Part shown: positions 14,536 through 28,983 of the stretch, piece after piece
Layout: each line of letters opens with the position of its first letter
How positions within the stretch are numbered: position 1 is the stretch's first letter
From: a virus
Virus record (IMG/VR): IMGVR_UViG_3300007236_002153
Span: 1 to 28,983 of that record
DNA: 28,983 nt
Direction: 5' to 3' (one strand)
Notes under the pieces: generated by a model
Database searches by the model: none
The model's input: the letters and a program-made list of their open reading frames with translations, nothing else
What the model was told of the DNA's origin: nothing
Translations under genes and position numbers: made by a program

Positions 14536-15693
14536 ATGGAACTCAAGGTCGCTCCTGATTATCTTCTCTCCGCTCTCCGAATCGCCAACCTTTGTGTGGG
14601 CAAGGGGGGTATTTCTGCTCACTTCCTGTTCCGGGTCAGGGACGGGTCCGCAGAGATCCTCAGCAAGTCCACCAGGACGTTCTCCGTGTGCCCCGTGACG
14701 TGCACCACGGAGGTCGAGGAAGACGAGGACCCGCGATTCACCGTGGAGGCTTGGCGGCTTATCAAGTGGGTCAACACCATCAACAGCGGGAACAACGCCA
14801 TCACCCTTTCCCACAAAGACGGTGAGGTCACCGCCAAGTGCGGCAGGAGCAAGGTCAAGTTCCGCAGCCTCGACCCAAACGGTTTCAGGGGGTGGGACTC
14901 CCTCTACCAGCAGGCAGAAGATTGCTGCGAGGTCGACCCCCCGGTTTTCTCCAGAGCCATCGCCGCAGGTCGGATCATGGTCTCACAGGAAGACACGCTG
15001 AAGCCCGAAAACTGCCAGTTGGTGGCTTGGGGCGAATCCCTGGCTGCTACGGACCAGAAGGGCGTGGTGAACGTCGGTTTGCCGTACGAGGGTCTGAACC
15101 TCCGGGTTCCCTTCAAGGACATTTCCACCATCCAGAAGTTCATCGAGGACAAGGACACGGTGGAAAACCCGATCTACATCAAGGAAGCCAAGAGGGTCAA
15201 GGAGGACGGGGGCTCGGAATTCGACTTCTTCGTCAGGCCCGATGGGACCTACATCGGGGTTGCGCGACTCGCCCTTCTTCCCGCGAAGGTCCTGACTCCT
15301 GGCAAGGACCAGAAGTGCCATGCCTACATCAACCTCCACAGTGAGGAATTCCAGACCGGGTTGGCTGTTCTGACTGCTTCGGCTCCCAAGGGGCACCACA
15401 CCGCCCACTTCTCCATCAGCGGGGAATCGGTCACCCTTTCCATGCCTTCTGCGGCTGGGGGCAAGGACTCATATCCCATGATCCACACCCAGGCGGAAGA
15501 GGGTGGTGAGGACCTTGAATTCTTCATCGACTACCACTACTTCATCGACCTGTTCGGGCTCTTCAATGTGTCTGAGCTGAGGGTGGGGGTGTACAAGGCC
15601 GGGGACAAGGGGTATGTCTCTGTGTACCACGATGACTCCGACGACGATGCCAACTCCTATTCCTTCGCTATCGGGTGCCTCTTTGAGACTTGA
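14536..15693 (+). CDS. Sliding clamp-like (DNA polymerase beta-clamp/PCNA fold) protein
   Basis: 385 aa, ATG three bases after the previous stop. The length fits a three-domain beta clamp (DnaN about 370 aa), and the sequence has repeated strand-helix patterns: MELKVAPDYLLSALRIANLC at the start, EVDPPVFSRAIAAGRIMVSQ around residue 135-155, and EEFQTGLAVLTASAPKG around 275. Each has the 'helix after two strands' look of a clamp domain. The end (EFFIDYHYFIDLFGLF, then a strand-rich tail) matches the DnaN C-domain 'DY-l-d-l' pattern. No polymerase gene is in the window. The fold assignment is from pattern only; the position among recombination genes supports it. Confidence 0.55.
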   Translation: MELKVAPDYLLSALRIANLCVGKGGISAHFLFRVRDGSAEILSKSTRTFSVCPVTCTTEVEEDEDPRFTVEAWRLIKWVNTINSGNNAITLSHKDGEVTAKCGRSKVKFRSLDPNGFRGWDSLYQQAEDCCEVDPPVFSRAIAAGRIMVSQEDTLKPENCQLVAWGESLAATDQKGVVNVGLPYEGLNLRVPFKDISTIQKFIEDKDTVENPIYIKEAKRVKEDGGSEFDFFVRPDGTYIGVARLALLPAKVLTPGKDQKCHAYINLHSEEFQTGLAVLTASAPKGHHTAHFSISGESVTLSMPSAAGGKDSYPMIHTQAEEGGEDLEFFIDYHYFIDLFGLFNVSELRVGVYKAGDKGYVSVYHDDSDDDANSYSFAIGCLFET

Positions 15694-17327: not shown

Positions 17328-17560
17328 TCCCTCCTGTTGTTCTGTCGGTATTTTCTGATTTTCCCCACGTCCAGACTGTGGTTTGGGACGGAGAAGTTGA
17401 GGTCAACGGGTCCAAAGTGGGGAACCCAGAAATCTTTGAACCATTGTGGGACTTCTTTGTCGAAACTCCGCACGTTCGTTATGACCGTGCGGAGGTAAGC
17501 GCCGAATCCCCGACTGGTATACTCCCCAACCCCCTAACAACCTTAGGATCAGACTCATGA
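17324..17560 (+). CDS. Small hypothetical protein upstream of the PurZ-like gene
   Basis: 78 aa from GTG 17324, which overlaps the previous stop (GTGA); its own stop overlaps the PurZ-like start (ATGA at 17557). The SD is weak. The sequence starts IPPVVLSVFSDFPHVQTVVW and is mostly short strands. The unbroken chain of stop-start overlaps is the main evidence that it is a gene. A longer frame opening at 17168 lies inside the previous gene and is not supported. A candidate promoter and a hairpin for the next gene lie in its 3' end. Confidence 0.45.
   Translation: MIPPVVLSVFSDFPHVQTVVWDGEVEVNGSKVGNPEIFEPLWDFFVETPHVRYDRAEVSAESPTGILPNPLTTLGSDS
17515..17523 (+). promoter_or_regulatory. Possible extended -10 promoter for the purine block
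   Basis: TGGTATACT (TG at 17515, TATACT 17518-17523) fits an extended -10 element, 34 bases before the ATG of the PurZ-like gene. No -35 is visible at the expected distance. It lies inside the end of the small upstream gene. Confidence 0.3.
17533..17547 (+). promoter_or_regulatory. Hairpin over the SD of the PurZ-like gene
   Basis: CCTAA (17533-17537), loop CAACC, TTAGG (17543-17547). The 3' arm includes the AGG of the SD (TTAGGA) for the ATG at 17557. The stem is only 5 bp. Confidence 0.3.
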
Positions 17561-18636
17561 GTGGTAGAAAGAGAGAAGTGGTTGCTGTCATTGGCGCACA
17601 ATTCGGCAGTGAGGGCAAGGGCAAGGTCGTTGACTGCCTTGTCAAGAACATGGACGGTGGAAACGGGTTCGACGTTGCCGTTCGGACTGGTGGTCCCAAC
17701 GCTGGGCACACCTTCTACACCAAGGACGGCAAGGCGTGGGTCATGCAGTCCATCCCGTGTGCTTGGGAAGACCCCACCACCAAGCTCGTCATCGGTGCGG
17801 GTGCTCTGTTCGACCCGGAGCAGATCAACGCAGAGATCGACCGCATCGAGGCCGAATACGGTGAGGGCTACATCACCAACCGCCTCTACGTTGATCCCAA
17901 CGCTGCCGTCATCGCTCAGGACCACCGCGACTTCGAGGGCGGCACCAAGGGTGACGCCCACGCCAAGATCGGCTCCACGGGCAAGGGGGTTGGTATCGCT
18001 CGCGCTGTCCATATCGCTCGTGGGCTCGGCTGGCACGGCGAACTCTCCACTGGCACCGTCGCTTCCCGTGGGCTGAAGGGTCGCTGGATCGAGGCCGACA
18101 CCGTTGAGATCATCCAGCAGGGCGACCGCATCCTGCTGGAGGGCACCCAGGGTGCTGGTCTCTCGCTTCTCCACGGTCCTTGGCCGAAGACCACCAGCGC
18201 CGACATTGGTGTCGCCTCCATGATGTCCGAGGCCGGTGTCCCCCCCGGTGACCGCCCCGTGGTCGTCTGGTACGCCACCCGCACTATGCCGATCCGCGTC
18301 GCTGGTCCCTCCGGTCCTCTCCCCGGCGAAATGACCTGGGAAGAGGTGTCCAAGTCCGCAGGCCGCGTGGTCATCGAGCGCACCACCGTGACCAAGAAGG
18401 TCCGCCGCATCGGTCGCTTCGATATGAAGGAGTTCAAGCGCTCTGTGGCCCGCAATGGTGCGGGCAAGGTGCTTTTGACCTTCTGCGACTACCTCGACGG
18501 CGGCAAGCCCGTCAATGAGGACGGATCCCTCGCTCCCGAGACTCAGGCTCTCGTGGACGAGATCAATGGGGTGTCCGGGATCACTGTCGCCGGTATCAGC
18601 ATTGGGCCGAAGGCCAGCGAAACCATCCTCTTTTAG
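17557..18636 (+). CDS. purZ: PurZ-like 2-aminoadenylosuccinate (dGMP) synthetase
   Basis: 359 aa member of the adenylosuccinate synthetase family, far shorter than bacterial PurA (about 430 aa). Kept motifs: the P-loop-like GAQFGSEGKGK (13-23), GGPNAGHT with the catalytic His (H51), GSTGKGVG, LLEGTQGAGL and the aspartate-binding loop TTVTKKVRR. The key change is Ser18 where PurA has the catalytic Asp (GDEGKGK). Replacement of this Asp by Ser, Thr or Gly is the reported mark of PurZ, which joins aspartate to dGMP; host PurB then gives the 2-aminoadenine nucleotide dZMP. Codons are strongly C-ending, unlike the flanking genes, suggesting high expression or separate origin. The alternative is a short archaeal-like PurA acting on IMP, but that keeps the Asp. 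Confidence 0.82.
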   Translation: MSGRKREVVAVIGAQFGSEGKGKVVDCLVKNMDGGNGFDVAVRTGGPNAGHTFYTKDGKAWVMQSIPCAWEDPTTKLVIGAGALFDPEQINAEIDRIEAEYGEGYITNRLYVDPNAAVIAQDHRDFEGGTKGDAHAKIGSTGKGVGIARAVHIARGLGWHGELSTGTVASRGLKGRWIEADTVEIIQQGDRILLEGTQGAGLSLLHGPWPKTTSADIGVASMMSEAGVPPGDRPVVVWYATRTMPIRVAGPSGPLPGEMTWEEVSKSAGRVVIERTTVTKKVRRIGRFDMKEFKRSVARNGAGKVLLTFCDYLDGGKPVNEDGSLAPETQALVDEINGVSGITVAGISIGPKASETILF

Positions 18637-18653
18637 AACGGAGAACAGACGAA

Positions 18654-19382
18654 ATGTCTGATGAAAACACCCGCCAGTTCCTTGCAGGGGTCAAAGATCG
18701 AATTGACGAAGCCTTTGCGGTCATGACCGAGAAGGCAGAACTTCGTGGTACTTCCAATCTTGACGACCAGGGAGTCCACGGTGTCTTGGGTCGCATGATC
18801 CACGACAAGGGTGTTCGCATCAGACGCTGGCTGGAGACTGGTGAAGAGGACTTCGAAGCTGTCCGCGACGACGTTCTCGACACCATCAACTACGCCGCCA
18901 TCGCGTTGTTCATGGGTGACACCAATCGAGGGGCTGGTCCCGGTCCCTCGATTGGCAATCCCCTCGTCACCCACGGCGAGTTCGAAAGAGCCCACGAAAC
19001 CGACGCTGGCTGGGACGTGTACACCAGCGAAGACGTCGTGGTTCCTCCCCACACCCACTCCAACGTTCCCAGCGGCACCCGCATGGTCCCGCCCCCCGGA
19101 ACGTGGCTGTTCCTCGTGGGGCGCAGCAGCACGTGGTCGAAGCACAAGCTGATGGTCATTCCCGGTGTCATCGACGCCGGGTACTCCGGTGAGCTGTTCG
19201 CCATGGTCCACAACCCCACCGACCAGCCCGTCACCCTCCCCAAGGGGTCGCGGGTCGTGCAGGCCATCCCCATCCCCATCCCGGCTCTCAAGGTCGTGGC
19301 TGGCTCGATGGAGGACGTTCATGCTGCCGCTGAGCGGTACGGAGACCGTGGCTCCAAGGGGTTTGGTTCCTCAGGAACCTGA
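18654..19382 (+). CDS. dut: Fusion: helical Nmad1/DUF1599-like domain plus dUTPase
   Basis: 242 aa, ATG with CGGAG 12 bases upstream. Residues 1-90 are helical and contain GRMIHDKGVRIRRWL and RDDVLDTINYAAIAL, which resemble Nmad1/DUF1599 and, more loosely, MazG-type pyrophosphatases (acidic EKAE and DVLD pairs). Residues 115-242 are a complete trimeric dUTPase: AGWD (118-121), GRSS (156-159), GVIDAGYSGE (171-180, with D174 and Y177), GSRVVQ (198-203) and RGSKGFGSSG (232-241). The dUTPase removes dUTP and gives dUMP. The N-terminal domain could hydrolyse another nucleotide; being next to the PurZ-like gene, dGTP is a candidate, as with MazZ. This last point is inference. Confidence 0.88.
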   Translation: MSDENTRQFLAGVKDRIDEAFAVMTEKAELRGTSNLDDQGVHGVLGRMIHDKGVRIRRWLETGEEDFEAVRDDVLDTINYAAIALFMGDTNRGAGPGPSIGNPLVTHGEFERAHETDAGWDVYTSEDVVVPPHTHSNVPSGTRMVPPPGTWLFLVGRSSTWSKHKLMVIPGVIDAGYSGELFAMVHNPTDQPVTLPKGSRVVQAIPIPIPALKVVAGSMEDVHAAAERYGDRGSKGFGSSGT

Positions 19383-19411
19383 ATGACCTTTTCGTTAGGG
19401 TTTTTTATAGT
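19383..19411 (+). promoter_or_regulatory. Candidate sigma70-like promoter
   Basis: ATGACC (19383-19388, 4 of 6 matches to the -35), a 17-bp spacer, and TATAGT (19406-19411, 5 of 6 to the -10), in the 68-base gap after the dUTPase gene. Start of transcription would fall near 19418, at the foot of the hairpin at 19413-19440. Confidence 0.4.
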
Positions 19412-19412
19412 C

Positions 19413-19440
19413 CCGGTTGGGTGTTCTTTCATCCAACCGG
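19413..19440 (+). promoter_or_regulatory. 11-bp hairpin next to the ribosome binding site
   Basis: CCGGTTGGGTG (19413-19423) pairs with CATCCAACCGG (19430-19440), one G-T pair, with loop TTCTTT. The foot of the 3' arm supplies the GG of the SD GGAG (19439-19442) for the gene at 19451. No T-tract follows, so translational control or a protein-binding operator is as likely as termination. Confidence 0.55.
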
Positions 19441-19450
19441 AGAAATAAGT

Positions 19451-20050
19451 ATGAAGAATCTCACTGCTTCCGATCGCAAGGTCCTCATTCGACTCGCTTC
19501 TTCGCTCCCGAAGGGAGACAAGTCGCGCAGGACTATCTTGTCTGGTCTCAGCAAAGTCGCAGCCAAGAAGGTCGTTCTTGAGGGCCTGGACCCCCGCACC
19601 CACAAGGAAATACTGGATGCAATTGGCAAGGTGAAGCGGGTCCTTGGGGACTCTGAGTTCGTTGCCTACAACGACATCTGGTCCGGCAAGTTCCTTGATG
19701 AAGCTTCCCCAACCCGCTATGTGGAGAAGGAACAGGAAGAGTACAACCAGTCAGCCGGGTTCGGCTTGATAGGCTCTATCCTTCCCCTTCTCAGGGGTTC
19801 TGCCAGAAAAGAGGTTGAGGAGGCCCTTAGGTCACAGGGTGTTGCTGTTGTCAGCACCAAGAGTGCTCTGGAATTGGCCAAGAGCGGGCACGAAGGCGGA
19901 GGTGGCTGGAGGTGGGAAGACACCACAGCCACCTGGGGAGACTTGTGGAGACTCGTCAAAGGTAAAGCTGTAGACGCTGTGGCTGTGTCCAAGTTGGTCG
20001 GCAAGCTTGAGGACGAGTATGAGGACGAGGACGAAGACGAGGATTGGTAG
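19451..20050 (+). CDS. Hypothetical protein with acidic C-terminus
   Basis: 199 aa, ATG 19451 with GGAG nine bases upstream; an in-frame ATG at 19421 lies in the hairpin loop region and was rejected. The N-terminus has LIRLASSLPKGDKSRRTIL, a basic amphipathic segment that looks like a reusable leader module. A middle part (about 45-125) is helical (LLRGSARKEVEEALRSQG) and a Trp-rich GGWRWEDTTATWGDLW follows. The end is a run of Glu and Asp with a terminal Trp. No enzyme motif. It sits inside the purine block, between the dUTPase fusion and the IMP dehydrogenase, with its own candidate promoter, so it may be regulated separately. Function unknown. Confidence 0.65.
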   Translation: MKNLTASDRKVLIRLASSLPKGDKSRRTILSGLSKVAAKKVVLEGLDPRTHKEILDAIGKVKRVLGDSEFVAYNDIWSGKFLDEASPTRYVEKEQEEYNQSAGFGLIGSILPLLRGSARKEVEEALRSQGVAVVSTKSALELAKSGHEGGGGWRWEDTTATWGDLWRLVKGKAVDAVAVSKLVGKLEDEYEDEDEDEDW

Positions 20051-20092: not shown

Positions 20093-21145
20093 ATGAAGCT
20101 CCGTTCCAACACCCCCGCCCTCACATACGACGACGTTCTTCTCGTCCCGGCTCATTCGAGGTGTCTGCCAAACGAGGTGGACACCTCGGTGCGTCTTGGG
20201 GGTCTGGACCTCAGAATCCCTATTCTTTCCTCCGCCATGGACACGGTCACTGAGTCCACGATGGCTATCGCCCTTGCTGAGGAAGGGGGACTGGGGGTCA
20301 TCCACAAGAATCTGTCTGTCGAGGAGCAGGTTCGTCAGGTTTCCGAGGTCAAGTCCAAGGGGCTTCTGGTCGGTGCCGCAGTTGGGATCGGGGAATCTGG
20401 TCTGAGCCGTGCCCACGCCCTTGTGGAAGCTGGCGTCGACCTCCTCTGTGTGGACACAGCGCATGGGCACTCAGAAGGCGTTCTCCGTGCCGTTTCCTTG
20501 GCCAGAAAGGCTTTCCCCGGCATGAATATCCTGGCTGGGTCCGTGGCCACACGGGAGGGCGCGGAAGCGGTCGCGAAGGCGGGTGCTAATATCCTCAAAG
20601 TCGGGATAGGTCCGGGCTCCATATGTACCACCAGGGTTGTGTCTGGGGTGGGTTTCCCGCAGCTTTCCGCCATAGACGAAGCTTTTGATTTCTGCTTCAA
20701 CAACGACGTCGATATAGTCGCAGATGGTGGTATCAAAGTTTCCGGCGACATAGCCAAGGCAATAGGCGTCGGAGCCACTGTGGTCATGGTGGGTTCTCTC
20801 CTGTCTGGTACCGACGAGTCACCCGGCGAGGTGTTTGAACACGGGGGTCGGAAGTACAAGACCTATCGGGGTATGGGCTCCATAGACGCCATGAAGGCTG
20901 GGTCCTCTGACAGGTATTTCCAGGACAACACCAAGAAGCTTGTGGCCGAAGGTATCAAGTCTCGTGTCCCCTACAAGGGCTCTGTTCGGGACATCGTGTA
21001 CCAGCTCGTCGGTGGCTTGCGTTCCGCCATGGGTTACACCGGACACCCCAACCTCAGCACCATGATCGGCAACTGCGAGTTTGTCCGCATAACCAGCAGC
21101 GGGATCGTGGAGAGTCGCCCCCACAGCGTCGAGCAGGTTGACTGA
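20093..21145 (+). CDS. guaB: IMP dehydrogenase lacking the CBS (Bateman) domains
   Basis: 350 aa, ATG with AGGAGG (20079-20084). Converts IMP to XMP with NAD, the first step to GMP. Motifs: TYDDVLLVPAHS near the N-terminus, SSAMDTVTE, the catalytic loop GIGPGSICTTR with Cys178, DGGIKVSGD, then YRGMGSIDAM, SSDRYFQ (the Arg-Tyr dyad, R274-Y275), EGIKSRVPYKG and GGLRSAMGYTG. The DRYFQ flap and EG-RVPYKG show it is IMPDH, not the similar-sized GMP reductase. Where bacterial IMPDH has a roughly 120-residue CBS pair, this protein goes straight from SVEEQVRQVSEVKSK to LLVGAAVG (about residues 85-95). Without CBS domains it should escape purine-nucleotide regulation. No guaA is present. Confidence 0.9.
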   Translation: MKLRSNTPALTYDDVLLVPAHSRCLPNEVDTSVRLGGLDLRIPILSSAMDTVTESTMAIALAEEGGLGVIHKNLSVEEQVRQVSEVKSKGLLVGAAVGIGESGLSRAHALVEAGVDLLCVDTAHGHSEGVLRAVSLARKAFPGMNILAGSVATREGAEAVAKAGANILKVGIGPGSICTTRVVSGVGFPQLSAIDEAFDFCFNNDVDIVADGGIKVSGDIAKAIGVGATVVMVGSLLSGTDESPGEVFEHGGRKYKTYRGMGSIDAMKAGSSDRYFQDNTKKLVAEGIKSRVPYKGSVRDIVYQLVGGLRSAMGYTGHPNLSTMIGNCEFVRITSSGIVESRPHSVEQVD

Positions 21146-22582: not shown

Positions 22583-23767
22583 GTGAGTTATACGGCTCTT
22601 AGTTTAGAGGTGGAATTGAGTAAAGAAATACAAATAGGGTTTCCCTGCCCTCACCTTGTGGTTGAGGAACCAGTTTCCCTGGGGAGCGACCGTCGGTCAC
22701 TCGATACCAGAGCCCCTGTGTCCAATTCCAACACAGTCAGGGTCTTGGTAAACGACTCTTTCTATGTCCCTCCTTCCGGTCTCTATAACCAAGCTACCCT
22801 GTACAGTCCGGAGGGGCCTTTCAGGATAAGACCCTGCCTGGGCCTCGCTGGTCCGGATGCCAACCTGTTCACGGTCACCACCAGCGCTGGCGAGGTCACG
22901 GTCAGGCTCCCCACCGGGGACCGGGTGTCTGTGACGAGGATAGTGGAATTCCTGAAGCTGAAGTTGGACGGGTTCTGCCTGGTCAGAGTATCCGACAACA
23001 AGTTCACCCTTTCCGACCCCTACGAAGCTGGCCGGGGGTCTTTTGTGAGGGTGGGGGGTGAGGCTTCCGACACACTCAGATTCTCCCAGAAGATGGCCAG
23101 AGGGAAGGAGCTGTACCCCGCTTGGAACCTGGAGTCGAGAGACGAGGTTTTCCCCGCTTCCACCATAGGCAGGGTGGTCATAGTCAAGGCTCGATACCCC
23201 AAATTCGTGTCTCCCATCAGGGGGAACCCCACGTTCAAGGTCACCTATTCTGCCATGCCGGAAAGGTGTCCGAGGTGCCAAGCCACATATGTGGAGAATG
23301 ACTACAGGTTCAACCCGTCCGGGGAATTGCTGACCATAGTGAACGAGAATCTGCTCCAGCAGGTTTGTCTCAAGGCTATACTCACCGTTCGGGGGTCCAA
23401 TCCCTTCCACCCTGGGTATGGTTCAAGGATAATGGAACGGGTGGGGTCAAAGTCCGTTCGGGCCGTGGCCGCAAGGATAAGAGAAGATGTGGTGAACGCC
23501 CTGAACACAGTCCAAGAGCTGCAGAGGAAGCAGGGGGCCTTCCAGCAGGTCACCAACAAGGAGCGGCTGTATAGGGTGGTGACTGTGGACGTCAAGCCGG
23601 GTCCGGACCCCACTGTCTTCAACATATCGGTAGTAGTTACCAACGGTTCCGGTTCCCCCGTCAGAACCACTGTGATCTATACAGCGCCTGGTGCCGTGGC
23701 CCTCGCAGGCTCCAACGGCCAGTCCCTGGGGAAACAGCCAACCCGTGTGATACTGGGTGAGTCATGA
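22583..23767 (+). CDS. Baseplate wedge protein, gp25/LysM-W-like C-terminus
   Basis: 394 aa if GTG 22583 is used; TTG 22616 (with AGAGG just upstream) is a good alternative and removes 11 residues. The last third has SNPFHPGYGSRIMERVG (about 270-286) followed by a helix-rich segment and a strand VVTVDVKPGPDP, the pattern of the T4 gp25 / P2 W wedge family. This family anchors the sheath to the baseplate. The N-terminal 230 residues are an extra beta-rich part (residues 50-110 VRVLVNDSFYVPPSGL...) with a possible zinc pair (PERCPRCQATY). The stop overlaps the start of the next baseplate gene (ATGA). gp25 proteins are normally about 130 aa, so this is a fused, enlarged version. Confidence 0.78.
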   Translation: MSYTALSLEVELSKEIQIGFPCPHLVVEEPVSLGSDRRSLDTRAPVSNSNTVRVLVNDSFYVPPSGLYNQATLYSPEGPFRIRPCLGLAGPDANLFTVTTSAGEVTVRLPTGDRVSVTRIVEFLKLKLDGFCLVRVSDNKFTLSDPYEAGRGSFVRVGGEASDTLRFSQKMARGKELYPAWNLESRDEVFPASTIGRVVIVKARYPKFVSPIRGNPTFKVTYSAMPERCPRCQATYVENDYRFNPSGELLTIVNENLLQQVCLKAILTVRGSNPFHPGYGSRIMERVGSKSVRAVAARIREDVVNALNTVQELQRKQGAFQQVTNKERLYRVVTVDVKPGPDPTVFNISVVVTNGSGSPVRTTVIYTAPGAVALAGSNGQSLGKQPTRVILGES

Positions 23768-26700
23768 GCGTCGCTATCAAGGGACCCGACGGGGTTTCCT
23801 ACCAGGAATTGTTCTATTCCACGAATCTACAGGCTGTCTTCCTGAGCGGGAGCATACCCTCCTCCGCCGTGGAAGTGCAGGTAGACTTCAACGACTCAGG
23901 GTACAACTCCTATCAAGGTCTTGTGCGGTGGGGGGACGGAACCTGGACCTTCCCGGACCCCTCCTACGAGCCCGATGGTATAGCGCTTTCTGTGGGAGTC
24001 AACTCCTTCAAGATCCGTGCTATCCTCCCCAATGGGTCGGTGACTCCCCCCGCCACGGCCAGTATAAGGTTCCTTGACAATTCCGGAGCAGTGGCCAACT
24101 CCCCCACCTCCGTGTCTGTGGAGCAGAACAACAACTCTGTCTCCATCAACGTGGAACCCCCCGATGACCCCAACGGGTACCTTCGGGGCATAAACTTCTA
24201 CGCCTCCACTTTTCCTGGGGGTGGGAGTTCTGGGTACTTCCGAATAAACGTCAACACGGTTTCCACTTCCAGCACCATCCAGAAGACCTCCCAGTTCGCC
24301 AATTCCCAGTTTGACGTTACGGTCAAGGCGGATGCCAACGGCAATCACGTTGCCGACCCCATGTACTTCAGGGTGGCGGGGTCACAAGAGGACTCAGACG
24401 AGGTTCTCCTTCAATCTGACTTCTCCGAGAAGTACGAAATACCAGAGTCTGCTGTTTCCATAAGGTACGTTTCTCAGCTCGAAGAGATCCGCACGGTCGA
24501 GGTCTTCAGCTTTGACCACAACCGCAGTTTCGGCCCCACCTCTGTCGTCCCAACCGTTGGCGTATCCGAATTCCGGTCTCTCTCAAACACCGAGCCTCTG
24601 TACTACGTGGCGACTGCAGTCTTCTACGACCCCATCCAGAAGCTCGAATACGAGTCTGCCTTTTCGGCTGAGGTCGTTGCCCATCCCGCGACGGTCACCC
24701 GCCTCCTCGGTTCGATAGGCACCGCTTCCAGGCAGGATATACTCCAGCAGTTCGTCACTGCCATATTCCGGAGCAACCCTCAGGTCAAGGTGGAGGTGGG
24801 GTCAGTCCTTCGCGACACGGTCATAGACCCCTTCACCTCCGAGTCTGAGAAGCTCCGGTTCATATTGGACTTCTACAACCGGGCCAGAACCCCGGCCCTT
24901 CTCCTTCAGATAGACGACCCCGACGGTTCCGGAACCAGCGTCCCCGTTTCCCAGAGCACCTACAAATCGGGACTGAAGTCCGCGTTGTACTTCGACACCG
25001 ATTCCCAGGTGCAGGACCTCATAGACTCGGCTTTCGAGTCTTACGCCTCAAACTTCGGTGTCACCCGCAAGGCTGGGGTCTCGGCCAGAGGTGAAGTCAC
25101 CTTCTTCACCTCCACCAGACCCCAGACCACGGTTTCCATACCTATAGGAACTCAGGTTTCCGGTGGGGGCCAGACCTTTTCCGTCACCCAGAACGTTTCC
25201 ATACCCGTGGGGCAGCTGGCTTCCTATTATGACCCGGTTTCTGGGTTCTACAAGGTGAACGCCCCCATCCGGTCTGTAGAAGTCGGAACTCAGACCAACC
25301 TGGGTGCTGGTCAGATAAACAAGATCCTGTCCAACGTGGGCTCCAAAATTCGCGTCACGAATTCCGCCTCTACCTTTGGGGGTCAGGAAGGGGAGAGCAA
25401 CCTTTCCCTCACCACCAGAGTGCAGAACCGACTGTCCTCTGTGGACTCAGGCACCAAGCAAGGGTACCAGCAGTCTGCTGCGAACACCCCCGGTGTCATA
25501 AAGTCAGGTGTCGTGGCGGCTGGGGACCCACTCATGCAGCGGGACCTCGACCAGACGGGGACCCATAGGGGTGGGAAGGTGGACGTTTGGGTGCAGGGAA
25601 CCAACCTCACCACGGTCACCGATTCCTTCGCCTTCACGTTTGAGATCAAGTCGGACGTTCAATTCGAGGTTCTGGATACCGCCTCTTTGACGTTCAGGGC
25701 CATAGACTCCGACCTGTCCGAGTTTGACCCCATCATTGAAATGCTGGACAACTCCGTTATAGGCTATGAGTTCGTAAACGCCTCCACCGGGCAGGCTTTC
25801 GATTTGCAGGGAGTCAAGATAGTCTCCTACAACACCATAGAGTTGGACACTAGTTTGGTCCAACCGTCTGTGGACCTCACGGACGTGGTGTTGGGTTCTT
25901 ATCGGAAACGCACTGGCACGGATTTCGTCTTCGTCAGACAGCCCGTCTTTGGGGTCACCTCCCTTGAAGGAGCTGTAAGCGGCGACATTCCCAGCTCGGC
26001 GTACACTCTCGTTCATCCCAATGCCCCCTTGTCTTACGGCAGGTCTATCCTGGCTGGGGACTTCTTGTCGGTGGTCGGGTACACAGACGACAGCGGAAAC
26101 TCCGTCCCCAGTGGTGACACGAATTCCGTGACGGACGAGCAGCACGTTCTGGTGGGTCAGTACCCGGAGTTTCTGGACAGCCTGGGGACCAACTTCCTCA
26201 CCATAGTGGTGAAAAGCTCCGATGGCCTCACCACCTATGCTGGACCACTCGATCCGGGTGGCGCTCCCGACTACCAGATAACCCTCGGTACCCAGACCAC
26301 TGCGGTGAGCATAACCAGAACGGATTCAAGTTCCATACCGAGTGGGGCGATAGTTCTCGTATCGTACGAACACGACGAGAATTTCACCGTGACCTACACC
26401 ACCAACCTGATAGTCAAAACCACCCAGGACTCCATAGACCAGACCAAACACGCTACTGCAGATGTCCTTGTGAAGGAGGCAGTTCCCATTCCCATAGACG
26501 TGGAAGCCACCATACTTCTGTCTCCGGGCGTGGATACCGGGGTGGCTGACACCTCGCTCAGAACAAACCTCAACAACTTCTTCGGCCAGCTTCGGTTGGG
26601 GGACCCAGTAAGGCAGTCGGACATCATAAACGTCATCGAGGGAACCAGTGGCGTTTCATACGTGGTCGTTCCCCTCACAAAGATGGTCCGTCAGGAAGGC

Positions 26701-27219
26701 AGCACCGTCGTCAGGGAGCAACTGTCGACCGATACAGCTGCGGAAAGCACCCTTCTCACGGGGTTGGTGGCTTCGGCTTCTTCTGTGTTTATCCTCAACC
26801 AGGAGTTCTCCGCCGCAACCGTTGACGGCGGGGGTCAGGAAGGGGACTTCAAGGCGGTATTCCAAGACGATTTGGAGCTAGAACTTTTGCCCTCCTCCTC
26901 CACTCTTCAGTCCCTCGCTTTGGGTCCCGGTTACGCCTTCATTATTGGTGAAAAGGGTATGTCTATACCGGGATTTTCGGATGACGCCACCCTCGAAGCT
27001 GAGGGGTATACCACCGAGTCTGCCAAATCCTCCCGCAGAAAAGAAATAACTGCCAACAGGGCTGTGGTTTCCGTCGCGGTTGGGGACTCCCCCGTCAACC
27101 ACGAGTATTCGGTCACCTACATCGTGGGGAACGACACTGGCTCAAAGAACATAGACCCAGGCGGGGCCGAATTCTGTCAGGTGGGAACCCTGACCCTGAC
27201 CTACGACGAGGACTCCTGA
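23764..27219 (+). CDS. Baseplate J-like protein (gp6/gp47 family) with N-terminal Ig/FN3-like domains
   Basis: 1151 aa structural protein of the contractile tail baseplate. Residues 1-310 are extra beta-sandwich modules, including a fibronectin-III-like one (SPTSVSVEQNNNSVSINVEP). The Baseplate_J core follows: RQDILQQFVTAIFRSNP, a strand-rich part with TTVSIPIGTQVSGGGQTF, then FGGQEGESNLSLTTRVQNRL and GTKQGYQQSAANTPGV, which match the 'GG-d-ES---l--R' and 'GT--gy---A---pgv' signature. Near the C-terminus, LRTNLNNFFGQLRLGDPVRQSDII and GVSYVVVP fit the end of the domain. It starts inside the stop of the gp25-like gene, the usual order of these two genes in contractile tails. Confidence 0.88.
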   Translation: MSVAIKGPDGVSYQELFYSTNLQAVFLSGSIPSSAVEVQVDFNDSGYNSYQGLVRWGDGTWTFPDPSYEPDGIALSVGVNSFKIRAILPNGSVTPPATASIRFLDNSGAVANSPTSVSVEQNNNSVSINVEPPDDPNGYLRGINFYASTFPGGGSSGYFRINVNTVSTSSTIQKTSQFANSQFDVTVKADANGNHVADPMYFRVAGSQEDSDEVLLQSDFSEKYEIPESAVSIRYVSQLEEIRTVEVFSFDHNRSFGPTSVVPTVGVSEFRSLSNTEPLYYVATAVFYDPIQKLEYESAFSAEVVAHPATVTRLLGSIGTASRQDILQQFVTAIFRSNPQVKVEVGSVLRDTVIDPFTSESEKLRFILDFYNRARTPALLLQIDDPDGSGTSVPVSQSTYKSGLKSALYFDTDSQVQDLIDSAFESYASNFGVTRKAGVSARGEVTFFTSTRPQTTVSIPIGTQVSGGGQTFSVTQNVSIPVGQLASYYDPVSGFYKVNAPIRSVEVGTQTNLGAGQINKILSNVGSKIRVTNSASTFGGQEGESNLSLTTRVQNRLSSVDSGTKQGYQQSAANTPGVIKSGVVAAGDPLMQRDLDQTGTHRGGKVDVWVQGTNLTTVTDSFAFTFEIKSDVQFEVLDTASLTFRAIDSDLSEFDPIIEMLDNSVIGYEFVNASTGQAFDLQGVKIVSYNTIELDTSLVQPSVDLTDVVLGSYRKRTGTDFVFVRQPVFGVTSLEGAVSGDIPSSAYTLVHPNAPLSYGRSILAGDFLSVVGYTDDSGNSVPSGDTNSVTDEQHVLVGQYPEFLDSLGTNFLTIVVKSSDGLTTYAGPLDPGGAPDYQITLGTQTTAVSITRTDSSSIPSGAIVLVSYEHDENFTVTYTTNLIVKTTQDSIDQTKHATADVLVKEAVPIPIDVEATILLSPGVDTGVADTSLRTNLNNFFGQLRLGDPVRQSDIINVIEGTSGVSYVVVPLTKMVRQEGSTVVREQLSTDTAAESTLLTGLVASASSVFILNQEFSAATVDGGGQEGDFKAVFQDDLELELLPSSSTLQSLALGPGYAFIIGEKGMSIPGFSDDATLEAEGYTTESAKSSRRKEITANRAVVSVAVGDSPVNHEYSVTYIVGNDTGSKNIDPGGAEFCQVGTLTLTYDEDS

Positions 27220-27221
27220 TT

Positions 27222-27389
27222 GTGGCTTCCTTTGATATGGCATGTTTGGTCTGCTACAACCTCATATCACATGGGCTCCGCAAGAGCGAGATCGCCGCTG
27301 CGATGAACGAACCCCCCGACTTCGTTTCCAAGGTGATGCGGGCCATCCGAAAGGTCGCCGCCGATTGGCGGGATCATGTCGGCATCTGA
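27222..27389 (+). CDS. Small helix-turn-helix protein
   Basis: 55 aa from GTG two bases after the baseplate stop; no strong SD. The central part LISHGLRKSEIAAAMNEPP then DFVSKVMRAIRKVA has the layout of a helix-turn-helix, with the turn at AMNEPP. Similar short HTH proteins are common in phages and may act as transcription factors or small-subunit-like DNA binders. The end overlaps the next start by 14 bases. The reading frame is short, but the clean HTH pattern and the tight packing support it. Confidence 0.5.
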   Translation: MASFDMACLVCYNLISHGLRKSEIAAAMNEPPDFVSKVMRAIRKVAADWRDHVGI

Positions 27390-27630
27390 CCAGAACCAGA
27401 CACAAGCGAAGCCACCCGGCCACACCTGCCCCACCATCGACAAGGCCCAGCGGTCGATGCGCCGTCTCGCGTGGCGAGCACGGCAACCGGAGCGGACGGC
27501 GGACACCTCCGAAGTGCTGGCAGAGGGGCTGGCACTACTGGAGTCCGTCAGGGCCGAGAACGCTGCGATGCGGAAGGCGTACTACGAGATGCGTAGCAGA
27601 CTGCGGGAGGTGGAAGATGGCAAGGCGTGA
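27376..27630 (+). CDS. Hypothetical small coiled-coil protein
   Basis: 84 aa, ATG overlapping the previous gene. The N-terminal part has GHTCPTIDKAQ, a Cys/His-containing segment I recall from small phage proteins of the form 'HtCP-ID'. The C-terminal 40 residues are a coiled coil (LALLESVRAENAAMRKAYYE). Function not known. Codon use is GC-rich with CGN arginines, as in the following genes and unlike the baseplate genes. Confidence 0.55.
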   Translation: MSASDQNQTQAKPPGHTCPTIDKAQRSMRRLAWRARQPERTADTSEVLAEGLALLESVRAENAAMRKAYYEMRSRLREVEDGKA

Positions 27631-27817
27631 GGCTCACTGTCTGGTATGCGGTCGGAAGTACATCGACTATGACGCCGCACCCCGCTTCTTCTGCTCCGTG
27701 GGTTGTGCGGCGGACGCTGGCGACCTCTCCCACGAGCGGGTCCATCGAGATACTGGACGAACCCGCCCAGCCCGAGTCGTCCGGTCCATCAAGAAGGCGA
27801 CGGTGAGTGATGACTGA
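27617..27817 (+). CDS. Small zinc-finger protein (CxxC...CxxxC)
   Basis: 66 aa, ATG preceded by GGGAGG and overlapping the previous gene. HCLVCGRKYIDYD then RFFCSVGCAADAG gives a CxxC...CxxxC cluster, like TRASH/MYM-type or ribbon zinc fingers. The C-terminus is basic (VVRSIKKATVSDD). A longer frame opening at 27242 is not supported because it lies over the genes at 27222 and 27376. Likely a nucleic-acid or protein-binding accessory factor; partner unknown. Confidence 0.55.
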   Translation: MARREAHCLVCGRKYIDYDAAPRFFCSVGCAADAGDLSHERVHRDTGRTRPARVVRSIKKATVSDD

Positions 27818-28187
27818 CCCCCACCGAGAACTCCGCGACAACCTGTCGAACATCGACCCCGCATGGCGAGGGGAGATCGAGTCCCTGCTGGCCGACCGGG
27901 ACCACCTTCTCCGCGTTCTACGGGTGGAGAAGGTGGTCACATCGGCGGCACCCGAGGGGTGGACCTATCTGCCCAAGGAACCCACTGAGATGTGGGTGTG
28001 GAACGGACCCTTCACCCACAACGTCCGACCCGTCATCGTCCGCAAGAGTGCGCGGGTGTGGGAACTCCGACAGAAACCCGATGGGGGGATGGCGCTGTCC
28101 TTCCCGACTGCGCTGGAGGCCATGCTCGCTGAGCCTCCGTGGGCGTCCATCGAGGACGGGGACACGCAGGAGATCACGCTGTGGTGA
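27810..28187 (+). CDS. Hypothetical protein
   Basis: 125 aa from ATG 27810 (GTG 27807 is in frame), overlapping the previous stop. Residues 1-40 are helical (RGEIESLLADRDHLLRVL). Residues 45-110 are rich in Trp and Pro (EGWTYLPKEPTEMWVWNGPF), with strands VRPVIVRKSARVWELRQ. No motif recognised. It ends four bases before the stop of the convergent GIY-YIG gene. Confidence 0.55.
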   Translation: MTDPHRELRDNLSNIDPAWRGEIESLLADRDHLLRVLRVEKVVTSAAPEGWTYLPKEPTEMWVWNGPFTHNVRPVIVRKSARVWELRQKPDGGMALSFPTALEAMLAEPPWASIEDGDTQEITLW

Positions 28188-28191
28188 GTGA

Positions 28192-28983
28192 CTACGCCTT
28201 GGGCGGTCTCCACCCCACAGGGTCAGCCACCCACGGATGATCTACACCCTCGCCACGGCACAGGGGTGAGTCCTCTGGCGTCCAGTGACACCGTGCCTTC
28301 CCGCGTTTGGAGTGCTTGAGCCTATACTCTGCACGGAGGGCTTCGGAGCGGCTGTAGTACGGGCCGTAGCAGGCTCGGGCGACCCACGGACGGTGCTTGG
28401 AAGTCCACTTTCCTCCTCCCTTCTTGCCCATCTTGCCGTTGGCGTAGCGCCCGTTGTGCTCACGGAGCCGTCGAGCCGGATCTGTGGTCATCCCAACGTA
28501 AAAGTAGCCGGGGAGGACTCGACCCGTCTTGGGACTCACCCGCTTCTGCTCACTTTGCAAGACGTACACCCAGTAGAGGCGGGACCGCTTCTCCTTGACT
28601 TTCACATTTAGGCAGTTGGGGTCGTCCATGTGTTCCTCGATGATCTGGGACTCGACCTCAAGAGCCTCGTCGTCGGTGTCGCACTCCACCAGTACCCGCC
28701 ATGTGGCGGTGCTCCAGTCCTGCTCGTTGAGGGCGGCTGTGTGACACCCCCTCGCAGATTTGCTCTTGTGGACATTGAACCGAAGGTCAGGACGGGTTGA
28801 CTTGCCGTAGTAGTAGCAGCCATTGGCGAATGTAATGCAGTACACCCGTGGGCGCTTCGTGGCTTCCCTCTTGGCTCTCAGGGAATCCTTGTTCGCTTCC
28901 CGGTACTCGCGTTGGTACGCCGCCCTCATCTCCCGTCTGGCTCTCTCTGTGGCAACGATCCGCTCCTTGTTCGCTTCCCGGTA
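28192..28983 (-). CDS. GIY-YIG endonuclease with two GIY-YIG domains (partial at window end)
   Basis: At least 263 codons, with no in-frame stop up to the window edge; the first ATG inside the window is at 28929. Numbering from that ATG: a first GIY-YIG-like domain VYCITFANGCYYYGK (29-43, with DLRFNVHKS following), a second and clearer one LYWVYVLQSEQ (118-128) with GYFYVGMTTDPARRLREHN (141-159), and then SRSEALRAEYRLKH with the conserved Glu. The N-terminal end has YREANK repeats, helical DNA-binding modules typical of free-standing homing endonucleases. Such genes spread by cutting sites that lack them. It is convergent with the gene before it. The true start is outside the window. Confidence 0.75.
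   Translation of the reverse strand, partial: YREANKERIVATERARREMRAAYQREYREANKDSLRAKREATKRPRVYCITFANGCYYYGKSTRPDLRFNVHKSKSARGCHTAALNEQDWSTATWRVLVECDTDDEALEVESQIIEEHMDDPNCLNVKVKEKRSRLYWVYVLQSEQKRVSPKTGRVLPGYFYVGMTTDPARRLREHNGRYANGKMGKKGGGKWTSKHRPWVARACYGPYYSRSEALRAEYRLKHSKRGKARCHWTPEDSPLCRGEGVDHPWVADPVGWRPPKA
28886..28983 (+). repeat. 20-bp direct repeat with 78-base period
   Basis: TCCTTGTTCGCTTCCCGGTA occurs at 28886-28905 and again at 28964-28983, where the window ends. On the minus strand it encodes the start of repeated YREANK(D/E) modules of the endonuclease, 26 codons apart. More copies may lie beyond the edge. Confidence 0.85.

Follow-up and report, generated by a model that had tools for sequence, protein, structure and literature searches.

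A probable PurZ-type enzyme of a third viral lineage, with a possible guanylate supply for a 2-aminoadenine genome, in a contractile-tailed phage

The window analyzed in this work is the whole stretch of the IMG/VR virus record IMGVR_UViG_3300007236_002153 (28,983 bases), and its purZ-like gene at positions 17557–18636 is the main subject here. This gene probably encodes a PurZ-type enzyme that belongs to a third viral lineage, the sister of PurZ0. The phage is contractile-tailed by its genes, has at least 159 kb and would have a route to a Z (2-aminoadenine) genome. As judged from its genes, the phage may well replace adenine by Z in its DNA. Two related records were compared: G001 (158,946 bp), whose positions 43320–72302 are 100% identical to the window, and G002 (34,966 bp), which presents the same gene order across most of the window with about 77–87% DNA identity.

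17557–18636, + strand: purZ-like gene, 359 aa; probably of a third lineage of PurZ, the sister of PurZ0; predicted to form succino-2-aminodeoxyadenylate (dSMP) from deoxyguanosine monophosphate (dGMP) and aspartate.

The purZ-like gene and its protein

The 359-aa product carries GAQFGSEGKGKV at residues 13–24, with Ser18 within GSEGKGK. The translation also presents the PNAGH motif with His51 and, at residues 276–284, the stretch TTVTKKVRR, which matches the aspartate loop. The serine motif, His51, the loop and the length of 359 aa had been listed by the initial annotation, and the translation confirms them. The protein scores 157.9 bits with the Pfam family PF00709, whose cut-off is 27, and its top PHROG match, with 227 bits, is 1211 ("2-aminooxy adenylosuccinate synthetase"). 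Among six NCBIfam matches, NF038379, for succino-amino-deoxyadenylate synthase PurZ, is the best with 213 bits, and the archaeal-type PurA model comes behind it with 204.9 bits. The strand opposite 17557–18636 is likewise free of stops; the GC content of the window is 57%.

The same protein is encoded in the second contig (L003), with 96% identity and a ratio of nonsynonymous to synonymous substitution rates (dN/dS) of 0.045. Since Ser18 is kept there, and since the window is 100% identical within the 158,946-bp contig, the serine is not a sequencing error.

Placement of the protein in relation to PurZ and PurA

Profiles built without the window protein gave it the highest score with the viral lineage L019–L038 (362 bits), followed by a mixed profile of five further cellular proteins of Ser type (273 bits), PurZ0 (260 bits), bacterial kinase fusions (234 bits), classic PurZ (184 bits), short Asp-type PurA (174 bits) and canonical PurA (142 bits). 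Nine columns that separate 32 PurZ-type from 14 Asp-type sequences were also chosen without the window protein. The protein presents the PurZ state at eight of them (Ser18, Glu127, Arg149, Arg242, Ile246, Ala249, Thr276 and Lys281); column 348 is the sole one at which it is PurA-like. Column 127 is a weak one, since its Glu is also found in three short Asp-type PurA. The Asp of the GDEGKGK motif occurs in all 14 PurA rows compared, which were picked as Asp-type, where the window protein has Ser18.

Three trees were built, one quick (87 rows) and two careful (85 and 48 rows), with support given as bootstrap/Shimodaira–Hasegawa-like approximate likelihood ratio test (SH-aLRT). The window protein was included in a clade with 13 viral sequences (100/99 in the 85-row tree; 100/95 in the 48-row tree), and this lineage is sister to PurZ0 (98/89 and 91/80, respectively). 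In the 48-row tree, the branch separating the PurZ rows from Asp-type PurA is supported by 100/98. In both careful trees the protein falls outside the PurZ0 clade, in the sister lineage with L019–L038, and for this reason it is not filed as PurZ0. By sequence, placement with PurZ rather than PurA is likely, and the protein is likely best classified within the PurZ superfamily as a new lineage, neither PurZ0 proper nor PurA. The best match by sequence among solved structures is the PurZ0 7vf6 (162 bits), followed by archaeal PurA (136 bits), phiVC8 PurZ (about 110 bits) and S-2L PurZ (90 bits).

Specificity of the serine

Relatives of the protein were compared in 80 viral loci, the best of 577, and in the 80 best genomic matches (L098–L177). 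Ser and His are present in 80 of the 80 viral loci. Both residues are also present in 78 of the 80 genomic matches, a count that gives no estimate of frequency, as the scan patterns favoured Ser and one contained it. N-terminal extensions of at least 100 aa occur in 61 of the 80 genomic loci; these are L104:5434–7041 and 60 more of L098–L177, bacterial proteins of about 540 aa in which the Ser-type PurA/PurZ domain lies behind the extension. The extension of L104, the one tried, matches P-loop kinase models. Full-length canonical PurA (PF00709 above 440 bits) was found in nine of the 13 genomes examined, including all eight with an extended Ser-type protein.

The initial annotation had held that loss of the Asp separates PurZ from PurA. 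This does not stand: the Asp-to-Ser change alone does not separate phage PurZ from cellular proteins, and Ser18 was ruled out as a sufficient marker by the 78 genomic matches and by five Ser-type sequences that sit with Asp-type PurA. The change marks a wider family, with a large Ser-type branch on bacterial chromosomes, so it is insufficient for a PurZ call, and an inference of Z-DNA needs the genomic context.

Predicted fold and active site

The AlphaFold model of the protein has a mean predicted local distance difference test (pLDDT) score of 82.0. The residues of S-2L PurZ around dGMP are given in PMC8342488, where Val241 is tied to a clash with the ribose 2′-OH. In the alignment mapping, the window protein keeps all seven S-2L base-pocket residues unchanged (G17, S18, N48, A49, T141, Q198 and V248), and likewise R155, T213, R247, T276 and R283 of the dGMP site. 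Most of these positions are common to PurA; among the seven of the base pocket, only Ser18 differs from every one of the four Asp-type PurA rows compared. Ser18, Thr276 and Phe309 agree with PurZ against those four rows, which have Lys or His at the position of Phe309. Other changes in relation to S-2L are F16 for Y21, T308 for N305 and D311 for Q308; D311 is shared with PurZ0 and PurA, and its position bears on the use of ATP or GTP as energy donor.

The DUF1599-DutZ fusion gene

18654–19382, + strand: fusion gene, 242 aa; DUF1599-like at about residues 1–100, DutZ-type dUTPase at 111–241; predicted to convert deoxyguanosine and deoxyadenosine triphosphates (dGTP, dATP) to dGMP and deoxyadenosine monophosphate (dAMP).

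This gene starts 17 bp downstream of the purZ-like gene, and its dUTPase domain at residues 111–241 is recognized by PF00692. A similar domain occurs in 660 phage records, of which the best 25 belong to Microbacterium, Micrococcus, Arthrobacter or Curtobacterium phages, with 42–49% identity; at least 16 of these 25 phages are also among the PurZ matches listed (60 of 217 per list). Of 40 records spaced down the dUTPase ranking, 32 lie outside Microbacterium and Arthrobacter phages, with 28–38% identity and expectation values (E) of 5e-13 or weaker. A Dut-like gene lies up to 3 kb downstream of purZ, on the same strand, in 60 of the 80 viral loci, the twin of the window included. As reported in PMC12884076, the Dut-like enzymes of phages Ghobes and Wayne hydrolyse dATP, dGTP and dUTP; dutZ occurs in 98 of 98 PurZ0 genomes and dmtZ, which is like nucleoside 2-deoxyribosyltransferase (NDT), in 85 of 98.

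The N-terminal domain of the window's protein has no Pfam match at E up to 1. Residues 1–100 resemble proteins that adjoin PurZ in L019, L023 and L024, which PF07659 (DUF1599, "Nucleotide modification associated domain 1") scores at 12.3, 21.2 and 26.9 bits, respectively, against a cut-off of 25. The label DUF1599-like comes from these relatives, with the match over cut-off in L024 only; DUF1599 is presumably MazG-like. The AlphaFold model of the domain has a mean pLDDT of 66.9 and no match in the PDB with E below 0.001. In L024:7034–7804, DUF1599 is fused to an NDT-like domain directly beside purZ.

A plain dUTPase was dropped as a reading of the fusion gene, since among phages it is nearest to the Dut genes of PurZ0-type phages, and since it has the DUF1599-like N-terminus. 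By analogy with the Ghobes and Wayne enzymes, it is predicted to cut dGTP and dATP to dGMP and dAMP. The adjacent DutZ-type domain is independent support for a PurZ-type enzyme. Together with the profiles, trees and diagnostic columns, it favours what the initial annotation had proposed, a candidate PurZ and hence a candidate Z genome. The strongest arguments come from neighbouring genes that the initial annotation did not bring in, namely this fusion, the IMPDH and, beyond the window, the GMP synthase.

Genes for guanylate supply

20093–21145, + strand: IMP dehydrogenase (IMPDH) catalytic domain, 350 aa, without the cystathionine beta-synthase (CBS) module; predicted to convert inosine monophosphate (IMP) to xanthosine monophosphate (XMP); same place in the second contig.
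32842–34356 of G001, − strand, outside the window: guanosine monophosphate (GMP) synthase, 504 aa, full length; GICYG and SGGVDS motifs.
16–2013, + strand: ribonucleotide reductase, 665 aa, probably class II (B12-dependent); phrog_367, 448.7 bits; predicted dGTP supply.

Over almost its full length, the IMPDH can be aligned with IMPDH structures of short chain (361–384 aa), which we take to be CBS-deleted or CBS-less forms, and Pfam matches no CBS domain in the protein. The catalytic motifs GSICTT, YRGMGS, RYFQ and VPYKG are kept. GMP reductase was ruled out for this gene by these motifs and by the scores, since GMP reductase models reach at most 242 bits, none over cut-off, and the IMPDH model 417. 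Between the two contigs, dN/dS is 0.065 for the IMPDH and 0.031 for the fusion gene; with the 0.045 of the purZ-like gene, all three are under purifying selection. The GMP synthase lies about 9 kb upstream of the first base of the window, on the other strand. For the reductase, RNR_Alpha is over cut-off (32.6 bits) and the class II insertion domain is under it (19.3 bits).

IMPDH was found in two (G001 and G002) of the 49 PurZ contigs surveyed, all with a length of at least about 19 kb, and a Lyase_1 (PurB-type) match in 13, neither G001 nor G002 among them. Among the best 25 of 74 IMPDH matches in the phage collection, 16 have 53–59% identity, 12 of them unannotated, and the annotated large-phage matches have about 34–35%, several being named GMP reductase. 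GMP synthase matches 18 records of the collection, none with more than 54% identity over a long stretch. In IMG/VR, the close relatives of the G001 GMP synthase, the IMPDH and the fusion are in G001 and G002 only (G001 only for GMP synthase), besides one distant dUTPase match.

Proposed route to Z-DNA

From the genes, their families and residues, the selection on them and the purZ–dutZ linkage, all seen here, we infer the catalytic steps, the part played by the host and the presence of Z in phage DNA as follows. Host IMP would be converted to XMP by the phage CBS-less IMPDH, which should escape feedback control by guanine nucleotides, and XMP to GMP by the phage GMP synthase, so turning IMP from adenine toward guanine. 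Host kinases would raise GMP to GTP, and the phage ribonucleotide reductase would make dGTP. The DUF1599-DutZ fusion would then cut dGTP to dGMP and also destroy dATP; PurZ would join dGMP and aspartate to dSMP; and host PurB and kinases would complete the Z triphosphate (dZTP), which would replace dATP in phage DNA. Both purines of ZTGC-DNA derive from guanylate, therefore more GMP is needed and the dATP pool has to shrink, and this would explain why a phage carries guaB and guaA. That a large contractile-tailed phage itself encodes the supply of guanylate to a Z genome, with a feedback-escaping CBS-less IMPDH, GMP synthase, ribonucleotide reductase, the DUF1599-DutZ fusion and a third-lineage PurZ, is in our estimate an even proposition.

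If true, the range of viruses that may use the Z alphabet, described for Siphoviridae and Podoviridae in PMC8599892, would extend to a contractile-tailed phage of 159 kb or more. Its genes hint at how so large a phage could afford Z, with IMP redirected to guanylate by guaB and guaA of its own. What is new is that PurZ occurs together with a contractile tail, the DUF1599-DutZ fusion and the IMP-to-GMP supply. Among the matches listed for the openly licensed literature, nothing on point joins diaminopurine, phage and guaB, phage IMPDH with GMP synthase as auxiliary metabolic genes, PurZ with Myoviridae or with metagenomes, or 2-aminoadenine with contractile phages.

Weighing of the interpretation and its alternatives

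Several observations weigh against the PurZ enzyme and its Z route. In the 159-kb contig, which is linear and probably incomplete, no match was found to DNA_pol_A, DNA_pol_B or DNA_pol3_alpha, nor, at E 0.01, to DNA polymerase I and PrimPol references or to DatZ, MazZ, PurB and Ghobes gp53, presumably the NDT-like gene. The protein does not reach the 300-bit cut-off of NF038379 (213 bits). Its own branch is long (about 1.4–1.6), and the approximately unbiased (AU) tests do not reject its attachment on the Asp-type PurA side (p 0.303; p 0.141 in the 48-row set). Five other Ser-type sequences (L056, L058, L074, L103 and L113) group with Asp-type PurA (99/96 in the 85-row tree). The top fold match is the archaeal PurA 5k7x (Z 37.8), with PurZ0 7vf6 at Z 37.1, a tie, so that the fold cannot choose between PurZ and PurA. 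Near dGMP, K211/T212 replace Y203/C204 of S-2L, in the loop of lowest confidence in the model. In the supply line, the IMPDH scores 416.8 bits with TIGR01302, under the cut-off of 481.5; GMP synthase occurs in one of the 49 PurZ contigs (G001); and a probable IS605 OrfB/TnpB-like transposase, assigned to its open reading frame (ORF) from the start sequence (L005:18346–19638; G001 38346–39638), lies at a distance of about 4 kb from the GMP synthase, so that the phage may have gained guaA recently.

The polymerase is the weakest link of the proposed route: no Z-selective (DpoZ-type) polymerase was found in the contig, which is classed as linear and may lack the gene. Matches to clamp, clamp-loader and exonuclease-subunit proteins are present in the contig, and a match to the "DNA polymerase" PHROG 14632 covers a short stretch and was read as exonuclease-like instead. 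These facts bear on an alternative with a small chance of being correct, in which the enzyme makes dSMP and the Z monophosphate (dZMP) but, for want of a Z-selecting polymerase in the phage, Z replaces adenine in part, with a polymerase of Pol III type or of the host; the module would then mainly lower dATP and spare the genome from restriction in part. The lack of a family A, B or C catalytic domain beside the clamp, clamp-loader and exonuclease-subunit matches is consistent with it. According to PMC8065100, S-2L replaces adenine using a PrimPol that accepts both A and Z, so pool control may outweigh the polymerase. Against partial replacement, the linear contig may lack a polymerase gene, and a Ghobes PolA query matches 31 of the 80 related viral PurZ loci.

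It is improbable that the protein, like the bacterial kinase-PurA fusions, is a relative of PurA of Ser type that aminates something else, for example GMP or another ribonucleotide, or acts toward a signalling or small-molecule product, and that the DNA has normal adenine. The Ser of the genomic matches, their frequent extensions (both from patterns that favoured Ser), the kinase models matched by the one extension tried, and the higher score of the five-sequence cellular profile over that of PurZ0 point in this direction. However, the window protein is devoid of a kinase domain and scores 234 bits with the kinase-fusion profile against 362 with the viral lineage; it also differs from the kinase fusions at column 149 and from most of them at column 249, and its linkage to the DUF1599-DutZ gene is that of Z phages.

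Least probable of all is an ordinary PurA-type enzyme that converts IMP to adenylosuccinate and raises ATP and dATP during infection: the AU tests leave it a formal opening, the archaeal PurA fold ties with PurZ0 and the archaeal-type PurA model comes near the PurZ model, but it was dropped on residues, profile and bootstrap, since the catalytic Asp is Ser, eight of nine columns are PurZ-type and the branch from Asp-type PurA has 100/98, and moreover the adjacent IMPDH would use up the IMP that such an enzyme needs, and the DutZ-type domain of the next gene groups with dATP-destroying enzymes. A placement among IMP-using PurA, which the initial annotation had set against its own proposal, is thus at odds with profiles, trees and diagnostic columns, all of which place the protein with PurZ and PurZ0, with the AU values given above.

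The phage contig and other features

22583–23767, + strand: baseplate protein (contractile tail), weak match; phrog_975, 29.6 bits.
23764–27219, + strand: baseplate J-like wedge protein, 1151 aa; PF04865, 79.5 bits; phrog_6 "baseplate wedge subunit", 121 bits.
14536–15693, + strand: DNA polymerase processivity factor (sliding clamp); phrog_947, 70 bits.
28192–28929, − strand: homing endonuclease match; phrog_314, with a weaker match named GIY-YIG; downstream of the baseplate genes.

By its gene content, the virus is a tailed phage, as G001 has terminase and portal PHROGs, and a contractile one, as the window has baseplate genes; the contractile tail proposed by the initial annotation agrees with the baseplate J-like gene (PF04865, phrog_6) and with the terminase and portal on the same contig. 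G001 also encodes replication and recombination genes, including RecD2. Both G001 and G002 are classed as linear, with no end repeats, and may be incomplete. Baseplate J was found in four of the 49 PurZ contigs: G001, G002, G005 and G033. The last two correspond to L023 (29.9-kb contig) and L072 (70.8-kb contig), with Baseplate_J scores of 278.9 and 41.8 bits, and L023 additionally has PolA-like, DutZ-like and DUF1599-like genes. Contractile PurZ phages may thus be of more than one kind.

Window positions 19392–19527 have further copies in G001, one at about 81.1 kb, with 95.6% identity across 137 bases, and a partial one at about 117.1 kb, with 98.6% across 69 bases; the repeat is located at the start of an ORF and is possibly a regulatory or leader sequence. 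In L005:6194–8029 (G001 26194–28029), a DNA methylase of the N6_N4_Mtase family is split by an intein-like insert with a Hint match and a LAGLIDADG match, the latter under cut-offs. A scan of 78 unannotated ORFs of G001 gave matches to glutamine synthetase, sulfotransferase, sigma factors and, at the contig start, deoxynucleoside kinase.

Comparison with known systems

The window protein has the fold of archaeal-type and canonical PurA (Z 37.8 with 5k7x) and keeps His51 and most of the residues that bind the nucleotide. It differs from them in Ser18 for Asp, Arg242 for Lys, Ile246 for Thr, Ala249 for Gly, Thr276 for Gly and Lys281 for Arg.

The PurZ of S-2L, phiVC8 and SH-Ab 15497 shares the fold, the Ser and the seven base-pocket residues, and Val248 of the window protein corresponds to V241 of S-2L PurZ, a Val also present in PurA rows. 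The identity to phiVC8 PurZ is 32%, and Asp311 takes the place of Gln308 in S-2L and Asn in phiVC8. Unlike this group, the 159-kb contig presented no DatZ or MazZ homologue in the search.

PurZ0, from the Gordonia phages Archimedes and Ghobes and from Arthrobacter phages (7vf6), resembles the window protein in the Ser for Asp and is its best sequence match among structures; Asp311 is as in the PurZ0 of Ghobes and Hiyaa. The identity to Ghobes PurZ0 is 37%, and the window protein sits in a sister viral lineage. Ghobes also has purZ followed by matches to the DutZ query within about 3 kb (PMC12884076). In contrast to the PurZ0 phages, the window phage has DUF1599-like and Dut domains in one gene, a contractile tail, and IMPDH plus GMP synthase. 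The predicted domain at residues 111–241 is like DutZ, the dATP/dGTP diphosphatase of PurZ0 phages in the account quoted from PMC12884076, with the best 25 matches at 42–49% identity. According to the same account, the Dut domain of phage Wayne is fused to an NDT-like (DmtZ) domain, whereas that of the window is fused to a DUF1599-like one.

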